Assembly (NCBI RefSeq): GCF_963675165.1
Contig: NC_087385.1
Span: 3,596,501-3,660,500 of the forward strand
Direction: 5' to 3'
Origin: Halichondria panicea
Taxonomy: Eukaryota > Porifera > Demospongiae > Suberitida > Halichondriidae
Length of the DNA: 64,000 nt
This document shows, piece after piece, positions 28,501-63,795 of the stretch. Position numbers and translations under genes: made by a program. Within the stretch, counting starts at the first letter, position 1. The number at the start of each line of letters is the position of its first letter. The notes under the pieces were generated by a model, which searched no databases, was not told the origin of the DNA, and saw only the letters and a list, made by a program, of their open reading frames with translations.

Positions 28501-31500
28501 GCTGTACGCTCAACTAAATTACTCAACAATGGTGTCCTAGGATAATTATGTATAATTGTATATATTGTTACAGTTTTTTAGTGACAGAAGTTGTCAGAAA
28601 GATGTTCTAGGCTTCACTGTCCTTTGCAAATGTCAAGAAAAGTTCAAGATTGGGGAATGGGAGGTATGTTTAATCCAGACGTTGTGTGAGTTAATTGTGT
28701 GGGGTGACATAATTGTACGTCCAGGGCAATCGCCTCCCTGTAAATTAGGATTCCCAGCAAATCGCATATCATTATTATACTCGAATTATGAAGCTATAAC
28801 ATGAAGGTCATGCAACTCTCATTATATAATTATACACAGTGTACTCAAAATTCATGTAAGAGGCGGGATATATGCTATAAAAGAATTCGGTGTACTCATG
28901 CGTCACTAAAAAATAGCTGCTGTATGAAATCTGAGAATTGTATGTGGCATTACATATAAAACAGGGTTTTTCATCGTTGGTTTTATCTCTCTCTCTCTAT
29001 TTTGTGTATCTGCATGAGTAAAACTACAATAGCGCACTTCTGTTACATTCTACAGTTGCACAGCGAAATTTGTGAGGAGATACAGAAAGTGACACCTAAA
29101 CCTGCAGTAGCAAATGTAAGTTGAATGTAGCAGTAGTTTACAGATGAGTGGACTAGTCGTACCTGTCTTAGGTATACCAAGAGTTCCTTGGTTATACTTG
29201 TGTAGTCTACTAGTTGTTACCATTTTACTTCGATATTTACATATCATTTTATAAAAATTTATTTCCAAGGTCCTGCCTCAAGATGTAGCTCAACTCGAAA
29301 ATGGATTGAAGCAAACACAAACTGAACTGTCGGAGCAAAAGAAACAGGTCTGTGCCAGATTGTTGGACTAGAAAACTTGTGTATAATTATTACAAAGACA
29401 ACATGACCATGCAGTGTTACTGTAACAGTAGTTACCAGTATAGCACAGTGTTACAGTAGTGGCTAGTGCATGGAGCAGGTGTTACATTGGTTAAAGCAGT
29501 GACAGTGTGACCGGCGTTACAGTAGTTACCATAATGCTCGTCAAATATACCCGCTATAAGCTATATGGTACTACTTGTCAATGCTCGTAATTATTACTGG
29601 CTATCGATATCGTGGAGCAGGTAGTTGGTGAAAAAGTTTCTACCCATTCGTATGAAATACCCCATTTAAAGATTTCGTATATTAAAATATTCGTACAGCT
29701 CAGGATAGTGACGTTGAATCTATTGCGGTAGAATAATTTCGTATTTTGCTCTTCAATACAAAATATCCGAAAATTTCCACCGTACGAAATAACCCGCTAT
29801 ATAGTATAAAAAACTGATTGGCTAGTGGAAGTATTTTATCCAACTCAATCTCACTTATTAGTTCACTCAGAAAATTATGTAGCTAGGATGAGTAGTACAG
29901 TGATCAAATTGTTGCTAATGACCTAAAAATAATGCTTATAGACACTGTTCAAAAAGTGTCACGTGATAATTATTATGAGTGAGGGTATTTCTAAACTTCC
30001 TAAACAGTGTCTAACTATACTGTATAGTGCGAAATTTTCGAGGCACTTATAATTATTTCGTGGAGCATTTCGTTGCATAATGATTGCTAACCCACAAAAT
30101 CCGCGAAAATTAAGTCCCTCGAAAAGTTCGCGCTATACGGTATTATTTACATACGACATGCATGAGTGTATATATATTCAGCAGAAATATGGCTTAGTCC
30201 CTGCTAAACACTGAGCTAAAGTCACTTTTGCATGTAACACCTAAATAACCTAGAAAAGCTGTAAAGCTGCATTGTTTCAGCAACAATCACAGTTTATCAT
30301 TTTCCACCGAGGCATCAGCACCTCACAGTACTTTCTGTTATTGGTAATGATAATTGATGGAATACATCCATGATATTAGTGCAGCCTTACCATTATAATT
30401 ATGTCTTGGAATATAGGGTAAAGCTGACAGTGCATGTGTGCATGTTTGTGTCTGTGTGTTCCAGTGCTCAACGATTGCTAAGCCTATAGCCTTGGATTTT
30501 GATTTGTGGATAATTGCTTACATTTGAAGGCTGTTGCAGTTAGTGTTTTCAGAATGGTGCAGAAAAACCTGCTCATACAAAGTTTTTATTCGACTTATTT
30601 ATTAGCCTCGCAGTTTCTAGGTATTTTATGCAATAGTGAAAATATCTGCAAGCTGCACGTACTGCATGCATGCAATGTAAAAGCAGTACTCATTATTGTG
30701 AAATTTGTAGATCTACCCCAGAGGAAGTCGGGACCACTTGACCTTTCACCTAATTACCTCTAATACATTTGAACATTCATCGACGCATTTAGTACCGCGG
30801 TGCTTAAACGTTACTATACATAGGTACAATGTATGTATACATTGTACCTACAAACTCCAGTATACTGGAGTTTGCAGAATCTTTGCAACACACCCATAAA
30901 AGCGTGGAGCGTTAAGCGTTCCTTATATGAAATATGTGTACACTGTGGTCTCAATGTAGAGCATAATTATAAGAAATGCACAATGCTCAAAACTTTTATT
31001 TATGTGTTGCAAAGATTTATGTGTTGCAAAGATTCTGCAAACTTCGGTTATAGTGCTGCAAGTTGATTGGCAATTTTTAAGTGATAATTATGAACTATAT
31101 ATGAATGTAAATTTTGTATAGGTTAATAGGTGCACCAAAAAGCTTGAATCGTTAGAGAAAGAAGTGCGCCAGCTCAGACTGTTGACTGACGAGGTACGAA
31201 GGGGTGTGGCAGCTTATGGGATTGCCCCCAGTCCAGGAAGCTCTTCAAGAACAGCAGCTGATGGAGAGCCTGCCGTGGTGAGCACTGTTGGTGTGTGCAC
31301 AAAAGTGTGTGTCATCTATCTAATCATAATTATATTTGTCTATAGCATATCCATATTTTTATTTTTTATCTAGAGCTATAATTATGCTAGTTGTTCAATG
31401 TCTTTAATAAATTTGTTTGCACATGCACCACTGTTTACAGAACTCCCGAGTACTGGACCAAATTCGAGAGACAGTCACGCAACTTGTGTCAGACATCGAA

Positions 31501-32118
31501 CAACAAAAGGGCACCTTAAGACAGCTAAATACATCAGTTGATCACTTCACACAGACTTTCCCACGAATGGAGACAGTTTTAGAAGAGTTGAATCTTAAAA
31601 TCGAAATCCTTGAAGTTAAGTCAACAAGTGGCGTGTACATATGGAAAGTGAACGACCTGGCAAGAAGAGCGCGAGAGGCAAGGATTGGTCGAACGGTGTC
31701 ACTCTACAGCCCTCCGTTCTATACTAGTCCACATGGATATCGTCTTTGCCTCAGGGCATATCTCTTTGGGGATGGTTCGGGGAAAGGTACCCATATATCA
31801 CTTTTTATCGTTGTGATGAAATCTGAGTACGATGATTTGCTTGCGTGGCCATTTCAACACAAAGTCACACTTACTCTAATCAATCAGGATCATCCGTTGA
31901 CCCCTGAACGATCAACCACACACCGATTTATTCCAAATGCTGATAGCTCAAGTTTCAAGAAGCCTGTCGACACATTTAATGTTGCTTCTGGTTTCCCCGA
32001 ATTTGCTCCTCTCTCTGTTATTACTGATCAAGCATTTTGTCACAACGATACTCTGTACTTTAGAATTAAGCTGGAAACCCCTGAAGCTGTTACTGGTCCA
32101 GATGAGCTGAAAGACTAA
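25521..32118 (+). CDS. Second TRAF family adaptor, short form
   Basis: TRAF-like adaptor on the opposite strand to the first. Exons: 25521-25696, 28373-28427, 28574-28663, 29056-29115, 29270-29347, 31122-31277, 31441-32118; 430 residues from the first visible ATG. All joins are in phase. RING-like: C32, C35, C47, C52, C55, C63 and C66, with Asp49 where histidine is expected (CGDRIC). Only one degenerate TRAF zinc finger follows (CKCQEKFKIGEWELH). Then comes a coiled coil (residues 135-265) and a complete MATH domain about 269-430 (GVYIWKVNDLARR, YSPPFYTSPHGYR, HISLFIVVMKSE). The MATH domain is clearly paralogous to that of the neighbouring TRAF. The first intron holds a decayed LINE. Extra 5' exons cannot be excluded. 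Confidence 0.9.
26340..27860 (+). pseudogene. Decayed non-LTR retrotransposon (LINE) with endonuclease and RT remnants
   Basis: Broken frames keep recognisable pieces. An endonuclease-like TETWL...VVGVVIIVSKHLPS lies near 26391-26520. Reverse-transcriptase pieces are VISGVPQRSALRPLLFLIYA near 27338-27397 (family core [20 protein letters not shown]) and, further on, RSHFTYCSEVWHP near 27743-27790 (family: SHLDYCSxVWxP). Stops and frameshifts interrupt every domain. It lies within the first intron of the second TRAF gene, in the same orientation. It is CR1/L2/jockey-type by motif, and the clade is uncertain. Confidence 0.75.
28428..31440 (+). other. Introns of the second TRAF gene between small exons
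   Basis: Apart from the listed exons, this stretch holds the palindromic element at 30019-30142, degenerate repeats near 29540-29815 ending in CCCGCTATA, and a copy of the interspersed repeat also seen at 13790-13990 (near 30450-30560). No extra exon is convincing. Confidence 0.5.
30019..30142. mobile_element. Palindromic CCGTATAGCG-family MITE
   Basis: CTGTATAGTGCGAAATTTTC on the left pairs with GTTCGCGCTATACGG on the right; 124 bp, non-coding. Same family as 52476-52653. Confidence 0.75.
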
Positions 32119-38215: not shown

Positions 38216-41200
38216 TTAGAAAATAAACTGGCTGGAGTTGACCAAACAAGCAGTCTGAATAGCCTCGACTGTAGCAGGTCCCACTGTAGAGAGGAAAGGT
38301 GCAATGTATCCTCATACATACTATGGAGCATACCAAGAGGGAAATAGTCAGTATTCCCAGCATCTTGTCTAGCACTCTCGATGGCCCTCTTGGCAGCAAA
38401 CAGCACAGAGCAGCTCATACACTGAGGCGGCTCTCCAGAGGCTGCAAGTACCTCTCACAACACAAACACATTCGATGTACACACATACCTTTGGAGCTAA
38501 GGATGCCGACAGGATTAGGAGTATTCTCGAGGAGTTTGACTCGAAAATCAATAGGAATGTCTTTAGAGGAGGGAGGCTTGTACTCCTGCAGAAGGTGGGT
38601 ACGTGAGGGTGCTGTGCATGAGTCATACATGCATGTACAGTATGTGGGCTTACCCAGGTATTGTGAGTGAGCAGCTGTCCAGAGTCTTCATCGTAGAGAA
38701 CCCTTTCTGTGAGCCAGTAGCCAAGACCCATCACAAATGCCCCCTCAACTTGGCCAATGTCTATATCTGGATTGATGCTCTGTCCGCAGTCGTAAAGAAT
38801 GTCCACCCTCAGAATCTGTGTTTCTCCAGTCAGAACATCCACCTCAACCTCAGACACTGCCGTCCCCCATGTGTTGTACACATAGTAGCTTGGGATATTT
38901 TCATTCACACTGAAGAAAACATCCCATAACATTGTGTGCATGATTGGTTCGCCAAGCTCACAAGAATCTTGCCGACAAGTCAATCCCCTCAGAGTAGCAC
39001 TTCTTAACGAGGTCCGGCCATGAGAGGTCCGGATTCTTCACACGGATGGGCTGAATCCTACCATTTAGTACACCACAAGCATTTTTTGTACCCTTTCGTG
39101 GGTGTGTGTACAAACAGGTGAAAATAGCCCATTACGGTATACCGGTACCCATATTATGTAATCAAGAAAATATTACTCTTTGGAGCTTACCAAACAGTTG
39201 AGTTCACTTCCAATGCTTCCCCCTGTTCCTGCAGCATTCGAATTGGTGAGAGAGTTGGTTGGTTTGATCTTCACAAAGCCTATGGGCACTCCCAACACTT
39301 TAGCAGCCACCTGAGCCACCTACACAGGTTGATAATACAGTGTAGAGTAACCAAGGTGCACAGTATACAACTTCACAAATTATAATTAGGGCAGACTTGG
39401 TGTGACTGTCTTGATAGCTAGCAATTATTATTCGGATAAGCACTTAATTTCTAGTGAGAGATACGTCACGTATATATAGTAGAAAGTGACTCACAACTTT
39501 TCAAGTGACACAGAATCAACTACGTACATTTAAGCACATGATCTACTCCAGAGACATGTTAAATATGTCACACGTATCTCACCTTAGTGTTGATTCCCTG
39601 CCCAATCTCAACTCCACCGTGAGCTATGGCCACTGTGCCATCATCAGCATATATACTGACCAGGACTGTGTATGGTGAACCATTCCAAGCTATTCCGAAC
39701 CTCAGAGGCATCATCGTCAGTCCACGTTTACGCCAGCGATTGCCCTGCATATACGTACATGTAAGTTTGCCTTTTTGTTTGCAAAGACTCGCCTTGTTGT
39801 AAGCAGCCACTTCAGTCTTCCGACTCTCAACATCAGCAGACTGGTAGAGCTCTGACGCATAATGACATAAATTGTGCATTACTCAAACCTTTGAACTTAC
39901 GATCCCAAACAGCTGAGATGTTGCAGTACTTGAGAGGATAGCCTCGCGGAGTTACCATGCCTTGCTTGTAGAGGTTGGCCCTCTTGACATTCTCCACCAC
40001 TAGACCTTGGGAGCGAGCCACGTGGTCGATCATACTCTCCATGATGAAGATGGCAGGTAAAGTGCCTACAGTATAGGCAATAGAGCAATCCATGTTCAAA
40101 GGATTAATACTCACCTGGCGATCGACAATAAGTGTTCGCGTGAGTGTTTGTCTTGCACGCTCTAGTGGTTATTTCCCAGTTAGGACAGTGGTAGGCTATA
40201 GCAATTTAATACCCAATGAAACAGTGAAGCCATTCAATTTTTCTAATCACCATTGTCAATATGGTCTGCTGCCACCGAGAGGTAGTTGTCATTTGGGTTC
40301 CAGCCACAGTCAGTGTACACAGTCACCTTGACACCATTCAAAATACCATCCTTACTGAAGCCAATCTACCAGTAACATAGCAATTATCTTAAACGTATAA
40401 GGTGTTTGAATGTCTTACCTGGTAGGTAGCGAGGTAAGGAAACCTCTTGCCAACCAGCTTCATGTTGGTTTCTAGGTCCATGTGCATCTTCACAGGTCTG
40501 CAAAATATAGGACACACTGAGTGACATCGGTTTTAAAGTGCTACGTTCCATTATTGTGTGGATGATTGGATGGGCAACCACCTTTAAACTTAGAGCAGCA
40601 CTAAAAATATAAAATCTCCCAAAAACTACAACGTTTTAATAAACTAGCTAGAATGTTGAGACACAAATAAGTCCATAGCCTTTTGTTACATCGATCTTTG
40701 TAGCTCGAGACTAGCCTTGTTTCCGGCCCGACTCCTCTTTAGCGGAATAGAGAAAAGTTAGGCCAGGAACAAGGCTAGCTTGAGACTGACCATCAATCAT
40801 CTGATAACTGATAACTACAGAATAATCACTTACCTACGTGAGGCATGAGCACCAACTGCACACGCAGCTGCAACCATGTTTGCTCTTGTTAGTTTGGATC
40901 CGTATGCTCCACCTACTCTCTTGATGGAGACATCTACGGAGCTGGCACCAACCCCCAAGACCCCGGCTACTGCGGCCTGCACATTATCTATCCACTGGGT
41001 AGCACTGTAAACAGCATAGCCCTCCTCAAGTGGAACAACCACAGCTGTCTGCGTCTCCATGGTGAAGTGGTACTGACTACCACAAGATATCTGACCAGAA
41101 ATCACATGATCCGAGTTCTGAATGGCAGCTGTACAGACATCAAGTACGTATAACAGTTTTTTTACAAGGGAAACGCCAACTTACTGGTGGGGTCTCCGAC

Positions 41201-45021: not shown

Positions 45022-48000
45022 ATGGGCAGGAATAAAGCTACAGCACGTAGGACGCCTAGTAAAAAGCTAAAAGAATCAAGCAACGGTAAGTTATACATCA
45101 TTACAACATAACACTCTGTGAAAGAGTCATAAACCACTGTCCATTTATCAGGTTCGAGTTCGCAAACACCCTTTGTTGACCCATACCGCCAAACTGCTGT
45201 ACAGCTGCCCACTACATGTGAGTGTAAACTGGTGTACGTTTATATATTAAAGCCCTCCCCACCAACACAAATCAATCAGCTCTACAGTATGTGCATAGAT
45301 AGTAATATTTCCGGAGCAAATACAGAGGCTGCTACTACAGAAGTGAGTATTAGTAATGAGCATGTAAAATTTACTCAAACAAAACGAATGCACAGAGTGA
45401 CTTGGTGAACAAGACTGATCCCAAATATACTATCTATGGTATGTGCTTTATATGCATACCATCTCTGAAAGATCTATGTACTTCTGCCAGTATGATGGTA
45501 AGCCTATGGTTGGGTACCTTTACCCTCTATGCTCCGCTCCTCACACTACTTGTACAGTATATCAGAAACCATTTTTTCCGGTGGCAGCCTTTTGGGTACC
45601 GGTAAGTGTTCGTAACACCCTGTGTTGCATATGTCCTCCATCCCTCTGTTGAGTACATGCTGTGTTCTACAGATAAGGAGTCTGAAGGCAGTGAAGAGAG
45701 CACTGAAGCTAAGACAAAGTTAAAGGATCTTTTGGATGTCAGTTGTGTGTGTCAATGTAATGTAATATACAATGTAGGTGTAGATCTACACTTGCCTCAA
45801 CTGAGTCTACACTTGCCTCAACTGAGTTGTAGATTATAATTATACCTCTTATTCCACTGTGCCAGTATCCACTAATCATTACCCTTCCTCGTCGTCAGGG
45901 AATCATCGCTGTGAGCAGCAAGTACTCCATGGATGATGAACCTATGAACACCGAGCAGGAAACAGCCAAGGATTTAACTGCACATGCTGCAATGGTATGT
46001 ACTGTATAACTGTATAACCTTTGTACTCTCAGTGTATTTCGTTTATAATTATTTTCTATTATCCTACAGCTTGAATCGTGTGCGACGGACCCAGAAACGA
46101 AAGAAGCAGTGAAGCCTGAGGAACTAACATTTTGGAAGCAAGTCACCGATCCCAAATCAAACCATACGTACTACTGGAACCCCAGAACGAACCAGGTGTC
46201 ATGGACTCTCCCTGACAACGGAGTCATTGCTGATAACACTCCTGATAACCCCGTTCCAGAAGACACTAGCATGGAACCGGAAGCGGACAATCCATACGCT
46301 GATTACTATGCCTACTACAAGCAGTTTTATGGTAAAACTGATACAGAAGCTTCAAATACAGAAGAGGATGATGAAATTGCTGAAAGCAAAACAGATGATG
46401 AAAGTGCTAAAAGCAAGACTGATATACAAAGTGATTTGGTGAATAAGACCGGGCCAAAACCACTGTCTACAAAGAAGGATGGTGACCCAGCTACGGAGAT
46501 AATTATTGGCCCTCTTCTACCGCCCTCTCACGTACCCAAGGATGCACAGTCACATGTGACTGAGGAGGGTGATGTTACTGCAAGGCCAGGGCTGAAAAGA
46601 AAAGCTTGCTCAGAGGAGGATACTGAAGGCTTAACAAATAACAGCCTTGATCCTGTATCCAAAAAGCAACGCCTCAAGTCTAAGGCTGTTGGTGCTGCCA
46701 AGAAGAACCTTTCTCCCCAAATCAAACTGAGTCCACAGGCAGAGCAAGCATTAAGAGTGGGTTGTCAACTTGTCGTGTATTTAATGTACATGTACATGTG
46801 ATATGCACTGTTATTTGGTATACTTGCAATACATCCACCTTGTTATTGTTTCAGTATGATGATCGTTGTTTTTGCAGTTCCAGGTATCAAACATGGCTGA
46901 TCAGCTCACTCGCAAGCTAGGCTACCTGCATGTGACCAACGAAGGGCTTTCTGATGTACAGCTGCTCAGCATTCAGCTACATGTATGTATTTGTGCACAT
47001 GTGTATCTTATCAGTGCAAACCACAAAAAATGTTCTGTAACAACAAAAGGTCACCTTTATTTGTCCCTACAGACTCGACTCTCAGACTGGAAAGAGGGTG
47101 GTATCAACTCAAAGTTCATGCTCTCAAAGCTCAGATCCTTTGCAGTCTCACTACAGGAGTACGAGCAGTCTGCAGCTCCTGAAGGCTGGAAAGTCGTTTG
47201 GGACAGGTGCCGACAGCCATTATACTGCATTTGTATTGCTGTTTGTAGTATGGCTATAAATTGTACTGTGGTTTATTTTACTAGCTTTTACTTGTTGTAT
47301 ATATATGACCATGCACAGCTCCTCGTGTCGCTACCAGTACCACAATCTATCCACTGGGGAGACCACCTGGGAATATCCCACTCAACTAGCAGGTACACAA
47401 CAACAACCATGCACCAGCCACACTTCTCACAAGTACTGTAATGTGTACTTGTAAACTCAGAGTACTTGCCTTTTTCACCTGCAGACTCACATGAGATTTC
47501 AGGTCAAGAGGACAGCTCTGACAATGAAGAGTTTCCATTGGTCACCCCTGCTGCTCAACCAACCACGTTAAATGTTTCCCTTAGCAACCAACTTCCTACA
47601 AGTGATGAGCCGAACGTCAACCTACCTCCTGCAATGGAACCAACTAGGCTAAGTCAGCTTGTGACCACAGCAGAGGTTAGCAGCACTCCACCAGGACCAC
47701 CCCCAATAGAGCCGACCCCTGACCGTAAAGGAGAGTGTACTCCCAAAGTACAACCCACTGTGAGACATAGCAAGGCATGTCTAGCTTTTAGTACATGTAC
47801 ATGTAAAGTATGTTGTCATTGCTAGTGCAAATTTTACTGTACTTGAGTATGACGTACTGCAGTACTGGTTGTTTACGTGTACCGTTATTGTTCAATTCCC
47901 TGCTCCTACAGCCCCCTTCCCCATCCACCAAAAGTGAGCTCACCTTGCAGAAGGTTCGACAGAAGCTCTATCCCGGTCTACGCCCACAACGTTCTAGAGA

Positions 48001-51000
48001 GTCCACCGATAACATTGAGATACCGCTACTGGCACCAACTGTTATCACTGAAGTTCCCCCTGAAGCAAAAAACTATGCCATAGTGGAACAACAAGTGGTA
48101 CCCATAAACCCTGAAGGAGTAGAGTTTATTTCCGAGTACCCTCCACCCTCTGAAGAGAAAATTGTTTCTGACAGCCCAAAAAGCTCTGGAGTTTTTGACA
48201 TGGGTGTCATCAAATCAGATGAGTCAAGTGCTAAGGCTGCAGCTCCCTCTACACAACAAATAACCGAGAGTGAAGCTCGTATACGAGAAAGGCTGCTCGA
48301 AAGACATCGAATCAAATTCAGTGTGTCATCGAAAGACAAGAAAGAGGAGGTTCCTCCCATAAGTGCTGTCAAACAGCCAATGAACAAACCCCAACCAGAA
48401 ATTCCGGTGAATCGAGTAGAGCAATCCACAGGAGAGGGCGTCCAGGGTGCAGTCGTCATTGCTCCACCTCCCGGTAATACTCAGGGAAGCGGTGTGGATG
48501 ACTCACGAGTTGAACCAGAGACTGGAGAAGTTGAACCTTTACCTGGATCTAAAAGTGACCCTCCTATTGCAATTGAAAAGACTGAAGCAATGCTCGTGAA
48601 GACAAGCAAAGGACAAGGACAAAAGACGTCATCTGGACTGTACCAAAACTGGTCCCCCAGCCCCACGGAGAGCATCGAACGGTTCCCCTCCAGCGATCAG
48701 AAGAGGGTTACAAAGGAGGGAGAGGAATCAAGCGAGAGTAGTGCTGATTCTGGTTCCACTGGTAAAGGAGAGACCGTCGGGAGGTGCTACATGGACAGTG
48801 AGGAAAAAAGGGAAAGGATCACTTCTGAGAGGTCAGTAATGCTACTTAATGTACGTTGTGTATTGTTGATCCTTGTACATGTACATGTGAACAATTTAAT
48901 GCGTATAATTACATTCATTACTGGTGTTTACAAACATGTCCACATGTGTTCAGGTCAAGGTCGCCCAGTAGAAAGTCCAAGTATGAACAGAAACATGATG
49001 ATTACCACAGTGACTCGGATCGTGGGAGGTATGATTGAATGGAAATGTGATCTTTGTATGTTTAGTGCAGTAAATTGTATTTCTTGGTAGGCTATCACAT
49101 CTGTTCAATAGTTCACCCTGCCCCTCTAGGTATTCAGACGTTGAGGTCAGCTCTAGAAAACACAAGAGTTCCAGACGCTCACGAAGGGACTACAGTTCTG
49201 ATGATTCTGAGGAGCGCTCATCCAGGAGAGAAAGGCACCACAGGTGCAAAACCCTTGCTTAACTGTTTGTGTTACACCCCTTTTGCTTCCATGTATAGCT
49301 AAGAGTTGAACTCACTTGTACCTACATGTACATGTACCGTACGTGTGTAATAATATGGTGTTTATCTGCTGATATTTCACAACCCCTTTTTGCAGGTCTC
49401 ACCACTATGACAATTCAGATGATGAACACTCTAAAGATGAACACTCTAAAAGACGATCGTCAAGGAGCTCTCATCGCAGCAGCAAGAAGAATCGATCTCG
49501 TTCCCGTTCGGGGCACAGACGCAAACGATCTCACTCCAAAGATTCCCATTCCCCCCACTCCACTGAACGCAGCCAGAGGAGATCGCCAAAGCACAAGAAG
49601 GTAAAAAAAGAGAAAAGGAAGAAGCATCACAAAACTGATAAAGAAAAGAAAGATGGAAAGAAAGATGAAAATAAGGAAGAAGAGGCGTCTAAGCCACCTC
49701 CTAATGTCATTGTGGGAAAAGTCGGGCGGATTAGCACCCAACGCACTCTTGGGAAAGACAGAAAGCCAGACGATAAACCAGAGACACCTAAAACCCTGGC
49801 AGCTCAACAGCCTCAGGCCATGTCAGCCACGTACTATCAGCACCCAACCACTGGAGAAGTGCCCTACTACTATTATCAGGGTTACTACGATCCCAGTGCG
49901 TATCAGCAGTGGGGACAGGGGCAGGGGCAGTGGTACGGACAGGATGTAACTCAAGCTACTCCTGGAGTCGTGCAGTATCCGTCACAGTACACAACAAACT
50001 CACAGTATGCCACAACAACTGCTGCCATCCAGCCTGAAACAACACAGCCTGTAGTGTCTACGCCAATGACTGGAGAACCTCACACTGAACTAGCTCAAGA
50101 GTCGAGGGAAAATGTTGGCAGGCCTCCTACTGAGACAGAATCGATAAACGTTGAGGCAGACAAAGTAGAGACGGACACCGATAAAACTGAACACGTAGTC
50201 GCACCCAGAATGGAAGTAGCTGAAGCCGAGACTGGAGAAGCAGTTCAAATGTCACAAGATTTACCTCAAGAAGCAGCTGTTGTACAGGTTCCCCAAATTC
50301 CTATACCTGTTAGTTTGTCTGAAACAGTTGAGCCTAGTAAAGTACAGAGAGTTGCCGAGGATGTACTGAGGACTGTAGACTCCAGTGATAAGATTGCAGT
50401 GACCAGTAATGAAGTTAGTGAAGAAGTGACCAGTGATGAAGTTGGTGAAGAAGTGTCCGTATATACATACGATGCTGTGGAGAATCGCTCTAAACAAGGT
50501 ACCTGTGTATGCGATGCAAAGCCTTAGCTTCAGCTACTACTACTCTACATGTGCAGTGATATTTTTATTCACCAACTGTGATCAACAAGATTTTCCCATC
50601 TGTAAATAGCTGATTAGGACGGCCTTGACCTTCTTCTACACATACATGTGGTTCCACTAATTCCACTAGAGCCCACCTTGACAATTGTACCTAATAGATA
50701 TATCCTGAGACCGTGTTGTATACATAAAATTTCTCATAATTGTGTGTTTTGTATCATGGCGACCCTTACCAAATTATGTCCTGAGAATACTTGACCGCGT
50801 TAAAATGTAGGGACTGTATGCCGTTATTACACACTCGTTACCTTGACAATGTGATATACAATCCATGGTTTTGTTTGTTCGTAGATGCCTTTTTCGAATA
50901 GTACCAGTTATGTTTGTTATCTCACACATGTAGGAACAAACACAATTGAGGTGGAAATCGAGGAACCGATCATGGAGTGTGACATGGACATTGATGAAGA

Positions 51001-52146
51001 GAACACTCCAAGTCCACAGCCATTTTCACAGGAACCAAGCAATGAAGCTGGACTTGTTATTGCGAGAGATAACAGTATTGATACAAACATTTCTGAATCT
51101 ATTGCTCCTCCTGCAATTGCTGAGCATATCAACAGCCAAGAGGAGATTTCCCTTGCCATTCCACTTCCTCCCACACTTTTAGAGGACCCGCTACCCCAAC
51201 CACCACCAGAAGCCCCTCCAACACCCCCTGCAGACAGCAATTCACTCTCTGACAAGGACAGCTCCTTGCCCAAGCCTTTTGATGGAGATGCAGTTGTTGT
51301 TAAGAGTTCAGAGGCTCTACCTGCTCCTCCCACGCCCCCCACACCACCAGCTACAAGTACTCTAGCATCTACAACCACTACCACAGACTATTCAGCCTAC
51401 ATGCTAGCAAACCAACAGCAACAAGCTTACAGCTATGCCTATGCTACGAACAACTATGTGCAGGCAGCGTACAATGCTTATGTGCAGCAAGCCAGTGCTG
51501 CTGCATACCAGGCCTATGGTGCAGGATACCCTGGATACAGCGCCTACCCAGCAGCGTCAAGCTATGGCAGTTCTTACGGGGCTGGCTATTATGGGACTAC
51601 TGGGACTACAACTCCAACCACACCAACCAGTGGAGGCGGAGGCTATGGCAAGATGGCTTATCAGCTAGCTCAAGAAGTAAGTTTGTGTATTGTGTGCTAA
51701 AAAGTACCTTAATGTATAAACGCTTGTAATTTTGAAAGTAAGTTTGAACTTCCGTTTTGCACAAGGTAAAACGAAAATTAATGCTTGAGAGTGCGTTAAA
51801 CGTAGTCTAGCTAGTCCTCTTTTTCATCTGTTATCTGACTCCAAATTTCACTAAAAACTCCTAGTTGTACATCATTTGACACTCTTATTCTTGCTGAGAA
51901 TTTTTTTAAATTAGTGCCCTAAAATCTGTAAATTTACGGATTTTAGTACTACTCTCTTGTCAGTACAGTGTGACTGCTCTATTTAATGCCACTTGTGTCC
52001 TTGTGCAGGCTGCCAATACCAGTACTTCAGATAGTTCTGATGCAAAGAAAAGTGAGTTTGCGATTCCTGGGACAAAGTCTAAGCAGATGAAGAATATGAT
52101 GGACAAGTGGTCCTCTTTTAAGGACAAGGAAGACTCTAGCTCTTAG
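45022..52146 (+). CDS. FNBP4: FNBP4, formin-binding protein 4 (two WW domains, RS and low-complexity regions)
   Basis: WW-domain protein that binds proline-rich ligands such as formins. Exons: 45022-45085, 45152-45217, 45299-45342, 45396-45438, 45673-45737, 45899-45994, 46070-46756, 46878-46982, 47073-47206, 47319-47392, 47485-47759, 47912-48831, 48954-49028, 49130-49243, 49396-50498, 50934-51676, 52009-52146; 1581 residues (human about 1017). WW1 145-175 (YYWNPRTNQVSWTLP); WW2 428-457 (GETTWEYP). Between them QLTRKLGYL and RLSDWKEGGINSKF match the human segment ELANTLTSKFEFLG...RIADWREGALNGNY, the best evidence for orthology. Arg-Ser/Lys-rich region about 858-1020, OCRE-like tyrosine cluster 1066-1100, Tyr/Ala/Gly region 1440-1528, and a conserved C-terminal helix (KQMKNMMDKWSSF). 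Exons 3-5 are small and less certain. Confidence 0.88.
51389..51650 (+). repeat. Tyrosine-rich low-complexity (FUS-like) segment of FNBP4
   Basis: About 88 residues dominated by Y, A, G, S and Q, for example YGAGYPGYSAYPAASSYGSS, of the kind called prion-like or FET-type low-complexity sequence. Confidence 0.8.
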
Positions 52147-52848
52147 ACACTGTAAATTTGTTGGCTGAACACTCTCATTAGTGTTTGAGGTATATTATGC
52201 GGCTGAATACTCTCATTAATGTACATGTTTGAGGTGTAATTATTTTATGCTGTACATGTACAATAATTTGTGCTTTCTTATTTAATTGTGCTGCAATAAT
52301 TGAAGTTGACTACCTTAAGGTGACATATTTTCACAAGTAGATTTGTTTGCGAATTCACTGTTTAGCTCATTTTGCTGGTATTAAATTCTTACTCAAGTTG
52401 TGAAAATTCATAACCTTTCTGATTACTCACAAGTGGTTTTAATGACAGTGTAATTATAAAAGATGTATGTACGTACCGTATAGCGCAACATTTTCGTGGA
52501 TCTCGTGGGTTAGCAATTCCTACACGAAAATTAAGTCCACGAAAATTTTTCAGAATTATCTGCTATAACGTGCAAAGATTTAAAGGCATGGCTTCCGGTA
52601 AGCAGTCATTGTGCAACGAAATGTAAATGCCTCAAAAATTTCGCGCTATACGGGGGACACATGCGAAATTATTATGTGCTTTCTAGTGCTACTGTAATAA
52701 TTGAAGTTGACTATAATTATAAAAGATGTATTCACATAATTATTCAGCAGTCAGCAAGTAAAATTACTACAAAAGTGAAGGGGGGGGGGACACGTGCATG
52801 AAATTATTATTCTCAACTTAGTAATAGCGAGTGTTAACGTTTGTACAG
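52147..52848. other. Convergent spacer between FNBP4 and the bHLH-PAS gene
   Basis: 3' UTRs of two converging genes, the palindromic MITE at 52476-52653 and a G-run near 52781-52790. No gene is visible. Confidence 0.5.
52476..52653. mobile_element. Palindromic CCGTATAGCG-family MITE
   Basis: CCGTATAGCGCAACATTTTC at the left and AAATTTCGCGCTATACGG at the right; an internal GTGGGTTAGCAATTCC segment is shared with the 30019-30142 element (GCTAACCCAC). Non-coding. Confidence 0.8.
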
Positions 52849-55800
52849 CTAGGCATAGCTCCCAATGTCATCTAAGAGTCTTAGGTCCTCCCCTGTCAAC
52901 AGGGGAAGTTGGTCTGGCAAACTTTGCACACCCATTGGCAAGTGTTGATTTGAAACAGTGCAGGAGGCTTGAATGTTTGCTGAAATGGCAGTTATGGGGT
53001 GTTGCGGTTGAAGAGCAGTGTTGAAGGTGGAGGAGTGTTGTTGTGGAAACATAGTTGCTGGTTGAGAAGTGACGATTTGCCCGTTTAGTGTCTGTACCTG
53101 TTGAAACTGCTGGTTATCAGCAACTGATTGTTCGCAGCCATGAAACTCGTTTTTAACTGTCACTCTGCCACCTTGCCAATCAGGGAGAAAATCGTGTTGT
53201 TGGTACGGTACATTCATATGAGGTGCAGCTTGTGTGTTGATCGGAGATGTGAAGTACTGCTTATCTCCCTGAGGCATTGTCTGAGCCCATGTGTGACCAC
53301 GGGACTGGCTAGACGAGTCAATAAAATCTGGGGTGTACATATTCAAGAGAGGGGGTACGTTGGAATATAGATCATTCGATTGGGGAAACTGTTGTTGCAA
53401 GTCAGTCTGGGTATAGCCTCCAGGTTGGTTCAACTGCCCATTACGTACGTATCTTTCTTGCGTCAATGTATCTTCTTGTTTAATGTGCAAACTGCCAGCC
53501 GTACGGTGTTTCCCAAGTAGGTGAGTAGCAGCACCAGGCTGTGGAGTGTCGTTCACTTGATGTGAGTTTGAATGTGAGTATCCTTGATTCGGACCACTTG
53601 TATTGGACAAGAGCAACGATGAGAGGTGGGAATTTTGATGCTGAGGCTGATCAGTATGCGATGATGTTATGGCTTGAGGAGAGCTGTTCATTACAGGGAA
53701 ATGTTGGTGATGACTGCTTGTTGGGTTGCTGGAAATGTTCATTGTTGAAGAGTTGATGTTTGGAATAGTGGCGTTGCTATTCAATACTCCAAAGATCCCA
53801 TGCGTAGCAGCAGGGATGTTCTCTGAGCTACCAACTTCTGATACACACCCCAAGGGAGATGTCATATAACCCGAAGAGGGGTTTTCCCACGATGATTTCC
53901 TTTGTGGCATAGATACATCGCTTAAGGGAGAATTAGAAGAGAAGGAGGACACTTCAGAGGCTCCACTGTTTGGTGAGAACATACCCCGCCCACCAGCACA
54001 GCTGTTGCTTGAGGAGTAGCCAGCATCTGAGGTTCGTGAGGTGGTGCCGGTGTGGGTACGAATCATACCCCCCATACTCGAGTCGGGCTCTGAGCTTGTG
54101 GAGTCGGGAAGCATACTTTCTTCCGGTAGGAAGACAGTAGAGCTTGGATTGGAATCAGGAAAACTAATGTCGGGACTAGACGATGATGTCACTTCGTTTT
54201 TCGTTACTGACTGGTCAGCTTCGTCCAGAGGGTTCACGACCTTTCCGTCTTCGCGGGATACCAGCGGGAAGGGATCATGGGATCTGGAGTCCAGTTCTTT
54301 AATTACCAGGTCGTTATCTTCCTCTATTGCTGTAATGGCACGGTTCTTGAGAACCTGGTCTCCCTTCTCTTTGCTACATAGAGGAAATAGATGCACAGTA
54401 TGACACCAAACCAAGCAAGTAATTTTACAGATCGATAATATATATATATAAAAAAAGGGACTTACTCAATAAGAAAGTTCATACAGACGATGTAGGACGG
54501 CTTTCCGGTACGACTGTCGTACATCACTGTGGCTCTGGTCTGCAACCACACGTAGTAGCCATGCTTGGTAAGGAATCGGAAGTAACCACTGAGACCCTCA
54601 CCTCGAGACATCACTGCGAGCAGAGAGAGCACTTACTAAAAGCCACTATATACACCAGGCAACTTCGAGACAACATTGATTAATATAGGGTCTCTATTAT
54701 GGTCTTATGGCACACTGAGTAATTATTTGTCAGCCCATCCTTTACTAAGCTTCAACTTTGCATCTTAGTTAAAAGTATGTGACGATTCATACCACAAGCC
54801 AAGCATTGAAATCCAGATAAAGCCAGGTACATATACAGACAAAAAGCATTTCCAGACACAACTAACCTCCGCGGCTGCATTCCATAGTGGCTTCAGTGTC
54901 GTCATGGTGATGAAGCGTGAAGACTACATCGCCAAGGAGATCCTTCTTTCTATAACCCATCAGCTGGTTTAATCTATACAAAAGTAAATGGTGTGACACA
55001 TCAGTTGACACTAGCACTTCTATTATATTCTGAGCAAGAAAGACATGCCATAGGCTGTACACCATAAACAATGAGATCCACAGTCATAGATTTATAAAGC
55101 GTAGTGAAGAGTTCTATTTATTGGCACAATTAAACTTGTAGCACTCATAGATACATGTATGATCAAATGTGGTGTCAAAACCACCCCACTTTACCTCCCG
55201 TCAAAGAAGGTGCACTTCATCTCCATGGAGTAGTGAGTAACAAACATGTTCCCCTCGACCTTGAGCTCAAGAATGGAGGGTGGGCTCACCGGCCTAACCA
55301 CCACCACTAGGAACGCTTCACTGCCGGACAGCTTCAGGCTACCAGAGATATACACCAGCTGCATATAGGTGGGTGTGTGTTTATGAGCACACATTCAAGT
55401 AACTAAAGTGTACTGCAATCCGATTTGTTGTCTACAACCATACATACAAATACATCATCATTTTATCGGATCAATCCTTAGGCTATATACCTTCCTATCG
55501 CTATTAAATGTGCGTAGTACCTTGTACCCGGGAGTCTTGGAAATGGTGTTGGTCACTTTGAAACGAGAGCATTTCATTCGACAGAAGAATCCCACCTCTG
55601 CGCTTGCTACATAAAACAATTACGGTAACCATAGCTTAACATTGAGGACATACAAGTACACCATTCTACACAAATGCCTGAGGCGATATACTGCCCAGTA
55701 GTCACGTTTGCATAGTAAACAAACAAGCTATGTGTACAGTGAAAAACCTACATGTAAAAATTTCAAAGGCATTTTTAATCCTAGCTAATACATAGGATTG

Positions 55801-58183
55801 CGACCTTCCCCAGCACTGAAACTTTTACAACTCAGCAAATTTCAAGCCTTAGTAAACAAACATGACATACACACAACTTAACACACATGATTCACAATGT
55901 ATGAACAAACACAAACATACAAGAGCAATGAAAACACAAATCTAATCTTCTTACAAATTACATTATGTGATATCAAGACTATCTTGGTGATATAGACCTT
56001 ATATCTGGTTTCAAATGCATAGTTAATCATGACACTGTTACAAGTCCTATCGCGTTTCTAACTATTATGCAAAGCATGCGAAATTGCGTGCGCATGCTCA
56101 CTCTTCGGGTGTTTTTTGTTTGCAATCTATGCGAAAACTCGCACTTTGCATTCGAAGAAACCTCGCGTTTAAGCTCCTATATACGGTAGTGTGCTGAGTG
56201 TGTACCATTGTGTCCCAGTCTGGCCAGAGATGTGACTTCAGCATCATGGATGGACCTCTTAACACTGTCTTCATCCTCCTCTAGAACAAGGTCATACAGA
56301 CTGATGCCAATGTGCTCCGACTGTAGGTAGGTTTATAGTATTGAGTGTAAGGTTGAGCAGAATGGCACCAATGACATCTGCATCCAGCTAGCTATCATGC
56401 TTATGGATCGGTCCAATGTACAACAGCACCTTGTATAACTTTCCAAGGTAAAAATATTTATGATTTTGTACATATAATTGAAAAGAGACCTACAAAATTA
56501 CAAAATATATGCAAAAAGAGTGGTCAGGCTTGGCTAAAAGCTAACAACCAGGAATAAATTTGATGCTATGAAATTGATCACCTAATGGATGGATGCATGT
56601 AATATTGACATTCTATACATTGAATCGTTTGCACTTTTAAGTGTGAACAACGCTTAAATACTGGTCACACATCCACATTGTTGCACAATCACCTGAAACA
56701 GCCCAAGATGCCTGTGTATGCTCTCAGATAGGTAAGTGATTGTACCATCTGTAAGAGCAACCATGAGAAATCCATCGAGGGCCTGCAAGGGCACATTGAA
56801 GATACGCATGAACTCACAGATTAATTGGATATATGATGCTAATGAGTGCAAAGTTGGGTGCTATGTTTCAAGGTGGGGTTTGTAATTTGACAGGGGAAAT
56901 ACACGCTAATAGCAAAACACTTGGGTATTTCACTGCAATGTACAAGACACAACACCTTACAGTTTCAATGCTTCATTCTCACCTCATTTATCAAGCCTTG
57001 CATAATCCCAGCAGTCTCCTTGCTCAAAAGGCTTTGATCAACCTCCTTTTCTTTTGCTATGGTCTCCTCTGTCACGGCACTGTAATAAATGGAAGAGGTG
57101 TACGTACATCAATTCATTATAATCAAATAAAAAGAGCCAAGTTCAGCAGAAGCCACTGAAACTTTGGCACTCTATCGACACAACTCTATGTACACAACTT
57201 CTTTTGTTGTTAGTTAGCCAATGGCTGATAATGCAAGTAAAACTGATTTTGTTCTACATAATACCTGAATCCCTATGTACGTACTTTCAGACAACACATG
57301 ACTAATGTCAATAGTCTGCTATTGGTAATTGATACTAGTTAATAATGAAGTTCAATATGGCTCAACTTACGGACCTCTGCTCATTAGAGTCCAGCAGTGC
57401 TTTGAGTCTGAAGAAACACAGGGCCAGTCTGAGACGTGAGTTGTAGTCCAGCTGTGAGACTACATCCTTCGGGAATGGAAGTGCCTGTGCATGTGAGGGT
57501 GGGTATAATATGCAGTTGAGGAAAGCACATACACAAATATATGATATCATTGAGTGGTGCACAGAACATCATAGTTGTGTGTGTAAATAAGATTAGTATA
57601 GGTGGGTGCGTAGGAGAGCTATGCATAACAGTGCTTTAAAATTTGACCATTAAGAGGAAACAAAGCACAAGGTAAGGACTGTTTGATGGAGGTGAAGGGG
57701 CAAGCAATAGGTTGAATGTGTCTGCTGTACGAGTATTACATGGTATGTTCAAGGGTGGCGACACATACAGAGCTGAGGTCAGCTATAGGTGTGGGATTGG
57801 ATTAGATGAGGTCATGGGAGAACACATCTATGGTATGCCCACTGAATGCCTAGTAAGGCTATGGAAATGAAATTAAGAGCACCACAGAGTGCCAAACCTA
57901 TTATGTTATTCAATCTGATTTCCTGCACCCAAATAAACATAAATTGAAGGAAATATCAGTTACAAGAACACCCTATAAAGATAACACGTGAAAACCAAAC
58001 ATGTTTTTTACAAACAAATCATACCTCAGTAAGTTTGTCCATTATTGACTTATATGTGGTACGGCGCTTCTGTGCCAGTTCCTTTGATCTCTGCCTTCTA
58101 GCAACAACGGAGCAGGATTGCGAAACCGAGGCTTTAGTTGATCCATTTGTCTCTAGGGTTTGGGTACATCCAGACGCCAGCAT
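52849..58183 (-). CDS. Class I bHLH-PAS transcription factor, HIF-alpha-like
   Basis: Predicted DNA-binding factor that would pair with an ARNT-type partner. Exons (high-low): 58183-58025, 57484-57375, 57079-56983, 56782-56693, 56320-56206, 55606-55521, 55358-55195, 54973-54867, 54613-54466, 54373-52849; 866 residues, close to HIF1A/EPAS1 length. Basic region RRQRSKELAQKRR (28-40), helix 2 with LPFPKDVVSQLD; PAS-A about 115-200 (ALDGFLMVALTDGTITYLSE); FFCRMKCS linker; PAS-B about 250-355 with LTKHGYYVWLQT and YIVCMNFLIE, closest in memory to EPAS1 (LAKHGGYVWLET). The tail is Ser/Asn/Gln-rich and ends LLTGEDLRLLDDIGSYA, reminiscent of the HIF C-terminal LLQGEELLRALDQ. No LxxLAP hydroxylation motif. 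The exon 2 donor is ambiguous (57375 fits phase; 57371 is the stronger site). AhR or SIM affinity is possible. Confidence 0.88.
55607..56205 (-). other. bHLH-PAS intron 5
   Basis: AT-rich with no visible coding segment. A GCGTGCGCATGC segment is present near 56086. The join across it (HNG/SAEVGFF) is in phase. Confidence 0.5.
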
Positions 58184-58730
58184 GATAGTTATTGCCTTTA
58201 TACAAACGTAGGAAGATGGTCAGTTATCGGTGAAATCGACATACACACCAACAATAAAACATCGTATGGAAACACTCAATTTCACCCACCCTGTTATGTT
58301 TGTTCTTTCAAATGCTACAGTGTAGTATTTGAAAGAATAAACATTACTGTAGAACAAGTTATAGGTAGCTTCAGCAACTCGTGTACATAATGCGAATTGA
58401 CTTCCCCCAAAAAGTGACTTAAGAGTGCAACTGCAACTAACGTAACATTAGCGGAAAATGATAAATTCCAGCTAAAAGGTTCAAAGTACCTTGGGCACAG
58501 ACCTTTGATCTTTAACTTAGTAAAGAGAAGATCAGACTTTTGTGCAAAAGAAGGTCAAGTTTCGAGCATGTGTACACTGATAACACCTGACACACACATA
58601 CAGAGATTATTTTGTACAGATGCCATACAGACTATAAGCTGTACAACTTATTATTAGATTGTTAGTCTGTGTATTCTGTACCTCTCATACCTCTCACCTG
58701 GATGCTAGAGTACGTGTTGTATTTATAGCA

Positions 58731-60858: not shown

Positions 60859-63795
60859 TCAGTAGTTGAGTGCACAGAGGAGGGCCACTGCACGCTTTAT
60901 CCAGTGGAACTGCGGCTTGCTTGATGGAATTTCAACTGCAATCACATAGTTGGTGGAGTGACCAGTGGTAGACAATGTGCCTGTGTGGGAGTGAATTAAA
61001 CGGGCCAGATTACGTAACAAATCATAATAGCAATTCAGCAAAATTCTTAAATAGTTTTCTGTCACAAATTCCAATCATAAATCTGAGTAAATTCATCGAC
61101 ATTAGACAGACAAACAGCTACTTCAAATGTTCTGGTATGTCATTACTGGTGAATGATTCTCATTAAAAAATGTAATCAGCTTACTAAGGTCATGGTACAA
61201 AAGATACACAACAATGACTCACCTGCTCGAGTGAGTGTCTTGTAGACAGGACACATGTAGATCCCACACTCTGGCTGCTTCCTGTCTGCAGTCGGGACGA
61301 GCCACATAACAGGCATGTCAGTGTAGAGCTCCTTAGGTCGAGACTCAGCTAATTCGAATGAGCCCATGTCCCATCTTGCACCCTCGACAAACAATCCTCG
61401 GATGTAACAACCATCTTCTGGTCGAGACGTGTAGGATGTGTAGGGATCCTTCATCACCTGTATGTGTGTGGCAGGGAAAGAGTGGCGTTCAAGGACCACT
61501 TAGGAAAAACAATAACCACTTCACCTCCTCCCCCCCCCCACATTGCACTTGAAAGGCCCATTATAACATTAAGCATTGTTTACCCACATTGATATTGAAA
61601 AAGCAAACTAACTTTGAAGTCAAAGCTGATGATGTCAATGGAGATGACTGCTTTTCTAGCAAAATTTTGCAGAGTTCCAGTCAGGAAAGCTTGTGGAAAG
61701 AAAAATCCGGAAATCCAAAAGACAGGGGGAATTCCATCATCAATCCAGCCCTGGATGAATTTCATTCTTTCCTCCAGATCCAGCACCCAGGTAGCCAGTG
61801 GTTTGAGAGAGGGATAAGCCTGTCGTATGTTTGAGTGTAAGCAATAACAGATATTAAAACAGCACCAGAAAATTATGGGGGTGGAACAAGTTCAAATCAT
61901 TAACAGCCTGCTACCTTTCCCACTCCTGGACAAACCCCACACTATACTAGGAATAGTTGTTACAGTATGGTGAGCAGTAGACAATAATTATGTTTATAAA
62001 GCTTACGCGTTGCACATAATTATTAAGGAGATAACGTTGATATTTGCCAAGTGATAGCTTTTGAAATTACTAAACTGGTCGTTTTAACAGACACATACCT
62101 TGGCAGCCCACATTTCAGGGACCTCATTGTTGTAAATACTGTTGAACATAGTCTCCAGAGCTTCAGACATGACCACTAGGCCCTTCAGAGCCTTCTTCAA
62201 GTCTTGCAGTGAGGAGTGGATCACTTTCAAGAGTCGGTTGTAGCGAATGACTTCCTGCACTAACACTGTATTCATGGATTCTGTGTACGTGACTGGGTAT
62301 TTTTCCATGATGTCAGCTATGGGCAGTGGCTTAGGGACACTCTCCATCACTTTCTTCACAACATCCTCAACAACCTGCAAAGAGAGAGAAGTGGGTAAGC
62401 TAATTAGAGTGACTACATTACCCCGCCAAGAGGAATGCCAGGAATTAATTAACTTATGTTTTACTGTAAAACAGAGTTCACCCTTTGCGCCCCTGGGTTT
62501 TAACACCACTACTAGCTTGATCGTCTTTATTGGTTGACAACCAGCTTGAGAGAAGTGATCCAGGATTTAATTGCAACCTTTTATCGCATTCTTCAAAAGG
62601 ACAGTAACCTTCTGTGGCTAAGGGTATAAATTGATGTACTGGTTTGCTGCACTAAGCTTTCCAAGCAGAACAACAAAAGCGCTAGCTGCTATATGCAGCA
62701 AAGGTCAAAAACCCAGGATAAGAATGCTCATTAAAAGTGACCCTATTGACCCTGGCATTCCTACTCTGGAATAATGTTACACTAAGTAAACTATCAAGCG
62801 AGATCAAAGCCCACAAGCCCTGCTGTCACACAAACGGAACAACCTGTAGGCATATCAAAGCATTCCATGGGGTTATATAATTATATGTACCGTATTACTA
62901 GAATGTTTTGCGAGCATCAAACATTTGCGAATTTTGCGAGGGTTGATCAATTCACAACAATAAAATCCGCAAAACCTAAATTATTACTAGTAAATACACA
63001 CGATCCTTGTCAGAACGCAGATCGCAAAGGGTCAAATTTTCTGCTGATTTGGCTCATTTGCAAAGGTTTTTCATCAGCAAAATATTCTAGTAATACGGTA
63101 TATCACTGAACTCTGTGGTACACAGAGAGCTGTTCAATTTTCACCCTAGAAGAACTTGTACAAACAGAGACAGGCTATTTAGTATAGCTGTCGCAACCAC
63201 CACAGCCCTTGTCATGAACGAACTTACTAACACGGTATAATTACATGTATCACCGAGTTCTTGATCTGGTATAATAATTATATTCTACTTTTCCATGAGT
63301 AACCTGCACGACAAAGGATATAGTTACTCACATCTTCCCTAGAAGTTCCAGCGCCTGAAGTTGACTTTGGCTGCAGTTTCAGAATTCCTGAGAGTAGCTG
63401 AGAGGTCTCATTTAACGCAAAGGTGATATTGGCATTGTCGTGAAGTCCAAATATCTCAGGGTTGCTGTTGATAGGCAGGGAACGAATGTAGTTCATATAC
63501 GCCTGTGTGGACAGACGGGAGAAATAAAAATCAATTTGTTTGTTCATACATTTTTGTATGAAAGCTATTTAACTACAGTGTGATGAAAAAAGATATACAA
63601 TACTGAGTCGAGTCTCACTTTATAGTCAGCATCTGGTGGTAGCTGGTGAAAAACACCCGACTCCGAAAATAAGTAGGTCTCACTGAGAGCGTCCTGGCAG
63701 TAGTAATCGTTGAGGATATTCATGATGCAACGCCTGTCCCAGTCATCAGTTACACGACCACCATAGTTGATGTGCCCAGCTGTGTACTTCAAAAC
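60859..63795 (-). CDS. DNAH1: Axonemal dynein heavy chain, C-terminal 395 residues (DNAH1-like)
   Basis: Motor subunit of ciliary inner arms; only the 3' end is in the window. Exons (high-low): 63795-63619, 63502-63332, 62374-62099, 61819-61613, 61457-61223, 60980-60859, all in phase; the gene continues past the right edge. Seen: [21 protein letters not shown] near the end of AAA6, [20 protein letters not shown], then the C-terminal domain with [25 protein letters not shown] and [18 protein letters not shown]. The very end ([15 protein letters not shown]) and [19 protein letters not shown] resemble DNAH1 more than DNAH7/3/12 as I remember them. The dynein call is certain and the subtype tentative. 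Confidence 0.9.
62888..63102. mobile_element. MITE with CCGTATTACTAGAATGTTTTGC ends
   Basis: TACCGTATTACTAGAATGTT at the left and AATATTCTAGTAATACGGTA at the right are near-perfect reverse complements; about 215 bp, with internal GCGAATTTTGCGAGG and complementary pieces. It lies in a dynein intron. Confidence 0.85.

Follow-up and report, generated by a model that had tools for sequence, protein, structure and literature searches.

How and when the oxygen sensing of HIF arose is an open question, and a bHLH-PAS gene of the sponge Halichondria panicea bears on it: is this gene a HIF-alpha that has no oxygen-degradation motif, or a factor of an older kind? The gene lies in a stretch of 64,000 nucleotides (the window), which corresponds to positions 3596501–3660500 of contig NC_087385.1 (C9) in a 131.5-Mb assembly of 39 contigs. 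On the minus strand it runs from position 58183 of the window, where the ATG starts, to 52849, where the stop codon ends. The initial annotation, made from the sequence alone, had described it as a HIF-alpha-like gene of 866 codons from a probable early-branching animal. Its extent and length were reproduced by the rebuilt gene, in which 10 exons and nine GT-AG introns give a single open frame of 866 amino acids (aa), and the host is indeed a sponge. With a probability of roughly 0.78, the gene encodes an intact class-I (alpha-type) bHLH-PAS factor from the stem of HIF/SIM/NPAS, not under PHD/VHL control. Such sponge genes appear in print under the names “HSN-like” (HSN, HIF-SIM-NPAS) and “HIFa/SIM-like.”

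Domain Architecture and Phylogenetic Placement

The protein comprises bHLH, PAS-A and PAS-B domains, followed by a long tail rich in Ser, Gln and Pro. The HIF/SIM-type architecture proposed for it was confirmed by matches to Pfam (bHLH_HIF1A, 1.9e-6; PAS, 8.4e-12; PAS_11, 3.3e-19) and to solved structures in the PDB. The peptide strings quoted at that time are also present, with one correction: the end of YIVCMNFLIE reads FLID after splicing, the last base of “FLIE” being intronic.

The PDB chain comparison covered the best 60 of 70 matches. Among the matches listed, the best solved chains were EPAS1 and HIF1A (156–167 bits, E 7e-48 to 2e-44), followed by HIF3A (134 bits), NPAS3 (119), AHR (113), NPAS1 (99) and CLOCK (94). 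Since SIM is missing among the chains listed, the gene was not named from this ranking alone. A tree was built from 15 aligned proteins, five of them from this genome, keeping 319 of 479 columns under LG+G4, with supports given as SH-like approximate likelihood ratio test/ultrafast bootstrap (SH-aLRT/UFBoot). The references EPAS1, HIF3A, NPAS1, NPAS3 and most of ARNT were taken from PDB outputs, HIF1A, SIM1, AHR, NPAS4 and CLOCK were added as further reference sequences, and this genome was the only sponge represented, with cnidarians, placozoans and ctenophores absent from the set. HIF and SIM/NPAS formed a clade in this tree (94.6/86), and the window gene was placed outside it, weakly as its sister (30/44). 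AHR grouped with NPAS4 (92.6/74), two other alpha-type genes of the sponge grouped together (80/76), and ARNT and CLOCK were found elsewhere. When constrained trees were compared by the approximately unbiased (AU) test, the stem position of HIF/SIM/NPAS was the best for the window gene (0.80), and SIM/NPAS (0.011), SIM1 (3e-5) and CLOCK (0.006) were rejected as its partners. The three sponge genes placed together with HSN obtained 0.39.

The “HIF-alpha-like” designation is not supported in that form by these comparisons. The identity of the window protein was 31.7% to EPAS1, 31.1% to SIM1, 29.1% to HIF1A and 27.9% to AHR, so that SIM1 equals EPAS1 and HIF1A within noise, and at the 18 columns separating HIFs from SIM/NPAS the gene carries the HIF state in two, the SIM/NPAS state in five and neither in 11. 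Judged by sequence, an alpha-type gene, probably from the HSN stem, is a defensible assignment, and the “HIF” label appears to go beyond what these data establish, the best tree placing the gene outside HIF + SIM/NPAS, though the AU test does not reject a HIF grouping (0.10).

Absence of the Oxygen-Degradation Motif

The absence of LxxLAP from the tail, already remarked in the initial annotation, was borne out: a pattern scan of the 866 aa for LxxLAP, L..[LR]AP, [LR]AP[YF], LAP and RAP found none. Neither L..[LR]AP nor [LR]AP[YFW]I was found in the three minus-strand frames of positions 52146–58700 and, therefore, the introns and the 3′ flank of the gene hold no such motif. At E 10, no part of the genome matched the Pfam model of the oxygen-dependent degradation domain (ODD; PF11413), in a search that lacked a positive control, no control genome having given a match either. 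No remnant of the domain was recognized in the tail, as 1799 and 2538 of 3000 shuffles equalled or exceeded its scores against the reference C-terminal and N-terminal ODD (CODD and NODD) of HIF1A, respectively, and 294 of 3000 its score against the EPAS1 CODD.

Two candidates were discarded. The string LLNMYTPDFID, taken by eye for a HIF CODD with its proline replaced, was dropped as chance, the alignment of the whole tail to the reference CODD and NODD having skipped that stretch. A loose motif scan around the two alpha-type paralogs described below gave one match near the gene at C9:5.03 Mb (LGLRAPQKK), approximately 1.4 kb beyond the last exon in the model of that gene and with a stop soon after; it was also taken as chance, but the modelled 3′ end of the gene is provisional. 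The same scan of the C9:5.83-Mb stretch gave no match.

As no hydroxylation motif is present, no oxygen-dependent degradation of the window protein is expected, and its amount would not be set by PHD and VHL. Reasoning from its family, the protein would pair with the sponge ARNT through the bHLH and both PAS domains, the pair would bind an ACGTG-type site, and the long tail would activate transcription. It would thus act as a constitutive or otherwise-regulated factor and not as a hypoxia switch.

Comparison With Published Sponge Genes

The suggestion that this could be an unrecognised stem member of the HIF/SIM group lost its ground, since sponge genes of the stem type are already in print (PMC1828162; PMC5800844; PMC7034838); the window gene is of the kind to be expected in a sponge, and its claim to novelty is weakened by these known members. 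One Amphimedon bHLH gene was tied jointly to Hif, Sim and Trh as a pro-ortholog (Simionato, 2007; PMC1828162), that is, one such gene in contrast to the three found here. Sponge and ctenophore proteins were later placed as sister to HSN (Mills, 2018; PMC5800844). According to that paper, 26 sponge genomes and transcriptomes contained no full hydroxylation motif, no EGL9/PHD ortholog was present in sponges, and VHL was found in a few demosponges only. These HSN-like proteins resemble the window protein in being alpha-type bHLH-PAS factors, most likely outside HIF/SIM/NPAS, lacking the prolyl-hydroxylation motif, in hosts in which no EGL9/PHD was found (here in a search without a positive control); no difference between them is apparent, the comparison being drawn from their description and not from direct alignment.

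Three HIFa/SIM-like genes and one ARNT were described in Halisarca dujardini and in Halichondria panicea itself (PMC7034838, 2020). The set of three alpha-type genes plus one ARNT, the lack of an ODD and of a demonstrable C-terminal transactivation domain (CTAD) and the variable tails agree with those found here; what differs is that the three genes are now seen on one chromosome and that the C-terminus of one shows a faint resemblance to a CTAD helix.

The “pre-oxygen-sensing form” that had been offered as the other possibility is reasonable as a hypothesis and has been put forward before. An alpha-type factor without the hydroxylation motif, standing beside ARNT and FIH-like exons, fits the published view that the transcription factor preceded the degradation switch (PMC5800844). 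The window gene contributes a case in which the assembly is chromosome-scale and three alpha-type paralogs share a chromosome, together with a testable proposal for the C-terminus.

Evidence Against the Stem Position and Alternative Assignments

Several observations weigh against the preferred assignment. The support for the stem position is weak and the branch of the window gene is long. The tree did not put the gene firmly with AHR, with NPAS4 or in a group of sponge genes alone, the outcomes singled out beforehand as contrary to a HIF/SIM position, but the AU test keeps AHR (0.41), AHR/NPAS4 (0.48), NPAS4 (0.13), HIF (0.10) and a grouping with the two other sponge genes (0.22). The Shimodaira-Hasegawa (SH) test is more permissive, retaining SIM/NPAS (0.30) and CLOCK (0.055), and only SIM1 (0.03) falls out. 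Columns invariant in HSN are kept by the window gene in 39 of 67 cases, barely above ARNT (38/67), with 35/65 for AHR and 36/66 for the C9:5.83-Mb gene; the paralog at C9:5.03 Mb keeps 41/60 and is the most HSN-like of the three by that count. In the alignment, the basic region reads LAQKRR, compared with AARSRR in HIF1A, and is off the HSN pattern; DNA binding by the protein is therefore not assured, and its site preference may differ.

Published observations also bear on the assignment. In Tethya kept at 0.25–2% air saturation, 128 of 37,000 genes changed, none with predicted roles in metabolism or stress, whereas complete anoxia for one hour altered the expression of 5981 genes. Transcripts of all six bHLH-PAS genes increased under anoxia, but a log fold change above 1 was reached only by HSN-like group one and ARNT (Mills, 2018; PMC5800844). 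The rise of these two transcripts makes some response to lost oxygen possible. Moreover, HIF1a, HIF1b, PHD1, PHD2, PHD4, FIH and VHL of Amphimedon are listed, by whole-protein similarity, in PMC9618697, in conflict with Mills (2018) on HIFa and PHD.

Two alternatives deserve consideration, and both appear improbable. The first is that the gene belongs to the AHR type or to another alpha-class group, possibly as a ligand-binding receptor, its likeness to HIF/SIM being shared ancestral sequence. The AU values for AHR and AHR/NPAS4 given above favor it, as does the string PPSILE at the start of PAS-B, common to the window protein and the AHR sequence. Also, in a table of PMC5064789 Amphimedon has a single AHR member and a single Sim/Trh/HIF member. 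The calcisponge Sycon has neither according to the same source, and some sponges may therefore lack genes of this kind. We consider the AHR assignment unlikely in view of the PDB scores among the matches listed (167 bits for EPAS1 vs. 113 for AHR), the lower identity to AHR than to EPAS1 and a basic region lacking the AHR pattern.

The second is that the gene is a true HIF-alpha ortholog, formerly regulated by oxygen, which lost its ODD during sponge evolution, as PHD and VHL were lost too, and is now free of that control. It shares with the HIF-alpha of cnidarians, placozoans and bilaterians (HIF1A, EPAS1) the order of bHLH, PAS-A, PAS-B and long tail and a similar length. The top PDB chains among the matches listed, which do not include SIM, are those of EPAS1 and HIF1A, a HIF grouping survives the AU test, and the C-terminus is weakly CTAD-like. 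By contrast, its tree lies 9.6 log-likelihood units below the best one, which leaves the gene outside the HIF clade, the HIF state is found at only two of the diagnostic columns, LxxLAP and any ODD remnant are lacking, and a CTAD is not demonstrable. An origin of this kind seems unlikely. Orthology with SIM, Trh or NPAS1/3 can practically be set aside: the identity to SIM1, the five SIM/NPAS states (perhaps ancestral, since AHR has seven) and retention by the SH test stand against rejection of both SIM/NPAS and SIM1 by the AU test.

Paralogs and Partner Genes in the Genome

Besides the window gene, at least four further bHLH-PAS loci were detected, a lower bound because exons were scored one by one. 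Two of them are alpha-type genes on the same contig: one at C9:5034581–5041073, with HIF1A as its best PDB match (142 bits), and one at C9:5831749–5835291, with matches to HIF1A and HIF3A (94 bits each). The PAS-B exons of the window gene, 107 and 148 nt long, recur with identical lengths and in the same place in both paralog models, which supports the gene model and a shared ancestry. C9 represents 7.05 of the 131.5 Mb, and the chance that two independent genes join the first one there is 0.003 by simple proportion. Linkage and shared exons suggest an old duplication within one chromosome. No paper on the chromosomal linkage of the three sponge genes came up, although the literature search was not aimed at linkage, and a scan of contigs from other genomes for sponge orthologs matched a single bacterial PAS only.

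The partner genes that the initial annotation had proposed to look for were found in part. ARNT is present at C13:0.90 Mb (240 bits to ARNT2), and a CLOCK/BMAL-like gene was located at C10:2.98 Mb (BMAL1, 89 bits; CLOCK, 75 bits). The latter encodes bHLH, PAS-A and PAS-B within one uninterrupted frame of 542 aa, unlike the four other modelled genes. FIH-like exons also exist in this genome, with 38–61% identity to human FIH. The six matches lie at C5:4544828–4547394, the best candidate locus; one of the six (C5:4546328–4546693) holds seven internal stops and probably spans introns. Ten of 27 Cupin_8 matches were compared with the reference FIH, and the best candidate came instead from the human FIH query. 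TAZ fingers of the CBP type were detected on C16, where four TAZ zinc-finger matches above the cut-off extend over approximately 40 kb (C16:1450732–1491480), perhaps several CBP-like copies or a gene and its copies.

The EGLN1 query gave no matches in the genome at E 10, and VHL gave none by Pfam or by the human protein query, in both cases without a positive control, so the absence of EGLN and VHL is not proven. By contrast, exons of the same genome were detected with human FIH as the query and with the PAS_11 model of Pfam. On C15 and C17, six 2OG-Fe(II) oxygenase frames of 163–530 aa were observed, and in five of them the match is free of internal stops; the reference EGLN1 matched none of the six at E 1.

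A Weak Resemblance to the HIF CTAD at the C-Terminus

The segment LLTGEDLRLLDDI (aa 850–862, positions 52864..52902, minus strand), four residues before the end of the protein, weakly resembles LLQGEELLRALDQV in helix C of the HIF1A CTAD, with one residue gapped; LLQGEELLRALDQV likewise stands at the end of the human protein. The score against a 30-aa HIF1A CTAD was 32, a value attained in 51 of 5000 shuffles when the last 60 aa were permuted and in 135 of 3000 when the whole tail was; with a longer 40-aa reference, the count for the last 60 aa was 148 of 5000. Against EPAS1 the corresponding figures were 480/5000 and 991/3000. For the four other bHLH-PAS genes of the sponge, the C-terminal ends of the available models scored 16–25 against the HIF1A CTAD. 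In an anchored comparison, the tail offered 450 other windows of 22 aa and none reached the score, which is not proof since the last 22 aa were picked after the likeness had been seen. Pfam and PDB searches for a CTAD with the last 57 aa gave no match.

With these marginal statistics, the resemblance of LLTGEDLRLLDDI may be the one novelty of this gene and is suggestive only; true homology with the CBP/p300-binding helix of the HIF CTAD seems doubtful. If it were true, coactivator recruitment would predate degradation through PHD/VHL, FIH and CBP being already present in sponges, and oxygen control of HIF would have arisen when an ODD was added to an existing, CBP-recruiting HSN ancestor. In the literature, Amphimedon is given as negative for the C-terminal activation domain (CAD) and positive for FIH, the earliest CAD-like sequences being those of a subset of Cnidaria (PMC6488082), and the Halisarca and Halichondria proteins are described as lacking a human-type CTAD (PMC7034838).

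Exon Structure and Other Observations

All 10 exons lie on the minus strand of the window. Exon 1 (58025..58183; aa 1–53) contains the start codon and encodes the first part of the bHLH, with its basic region and helix 1, as supported by the frame and the GTATGA donor, and exon 2 (57375..57484, CAG acceptor) the loop and helix 2; the bHLH_HIF1A match covers aa 14–86. The exon 2 donor, GTCCGT, has an alternative GTAAGT 4 nt downstream and is the least certain junction, and one more exon may exist upstream of exon 1. The linker and the start of PAS-A are placed by the gene model in exon 3 (56983..57079). PAS-A continues in exon 4 (56693..56782; ALDGFLMV...LGLFQ), within the Pfam PAS match at aa 116–181, and the remainder of that match falls in exon 5 (56206..56320). 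The exon 4 junction, in phase 0 after LGLxQ, is at the same place in the C9:5.03-Mb gene model. Exon 6 (55521..55606) carries the FFCRMKC segment, and exon 7 (55195..55358) the end of the PAS-A region and the start of PAS-B, both assigned from the gene model and PDB chain matches. The two PAS-B exons of shared length are exon 8 (54867..54973, 107 nt) and exon 9 (54466..54613, 148 nt; TKHGYYVWLQT...YIVCMNFLI), assigned by the PAS_11 match (aa 257–362). Exon 10 (52849..54373) encodes the tail of approximately 500 aa, in which the motif scans found no LAP or RAP string, and the stop codon.

On the plus strand, frames at 46049–52146 include a WW domain (46049–46798), an Arg/Ser-rich stretch (49373–50524) and a Tyr/Ala/Pro-rich end, perhaps as a single gene; they run towards the bHLH-PAS gene and end approximately 700 bases from its stop codon. 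Other frames in the window correspond to MoaC (19192–19875, plus), TRAF/MATH (20273–21262, minus, and 31411–32115, plus), a molybdopterin-binding domain (38372–39037, minus) and a dynein heavy-chain C-terminal domain (62087–62566, minus). Elsewhere in the genome, C1 contains a copy of part of the mitochondrial cox1 (C1:5280527–5280718, TGA read as Trp), with a sequence like that of demosponge cox1, and seven HLH matches of marginal significance (E 5.6e-4 to 9.6e-4, profile positions approximately 8–34) are spread over 1.5 Mb at C1:15719282–17195321, maybe from a repeated gene or element.

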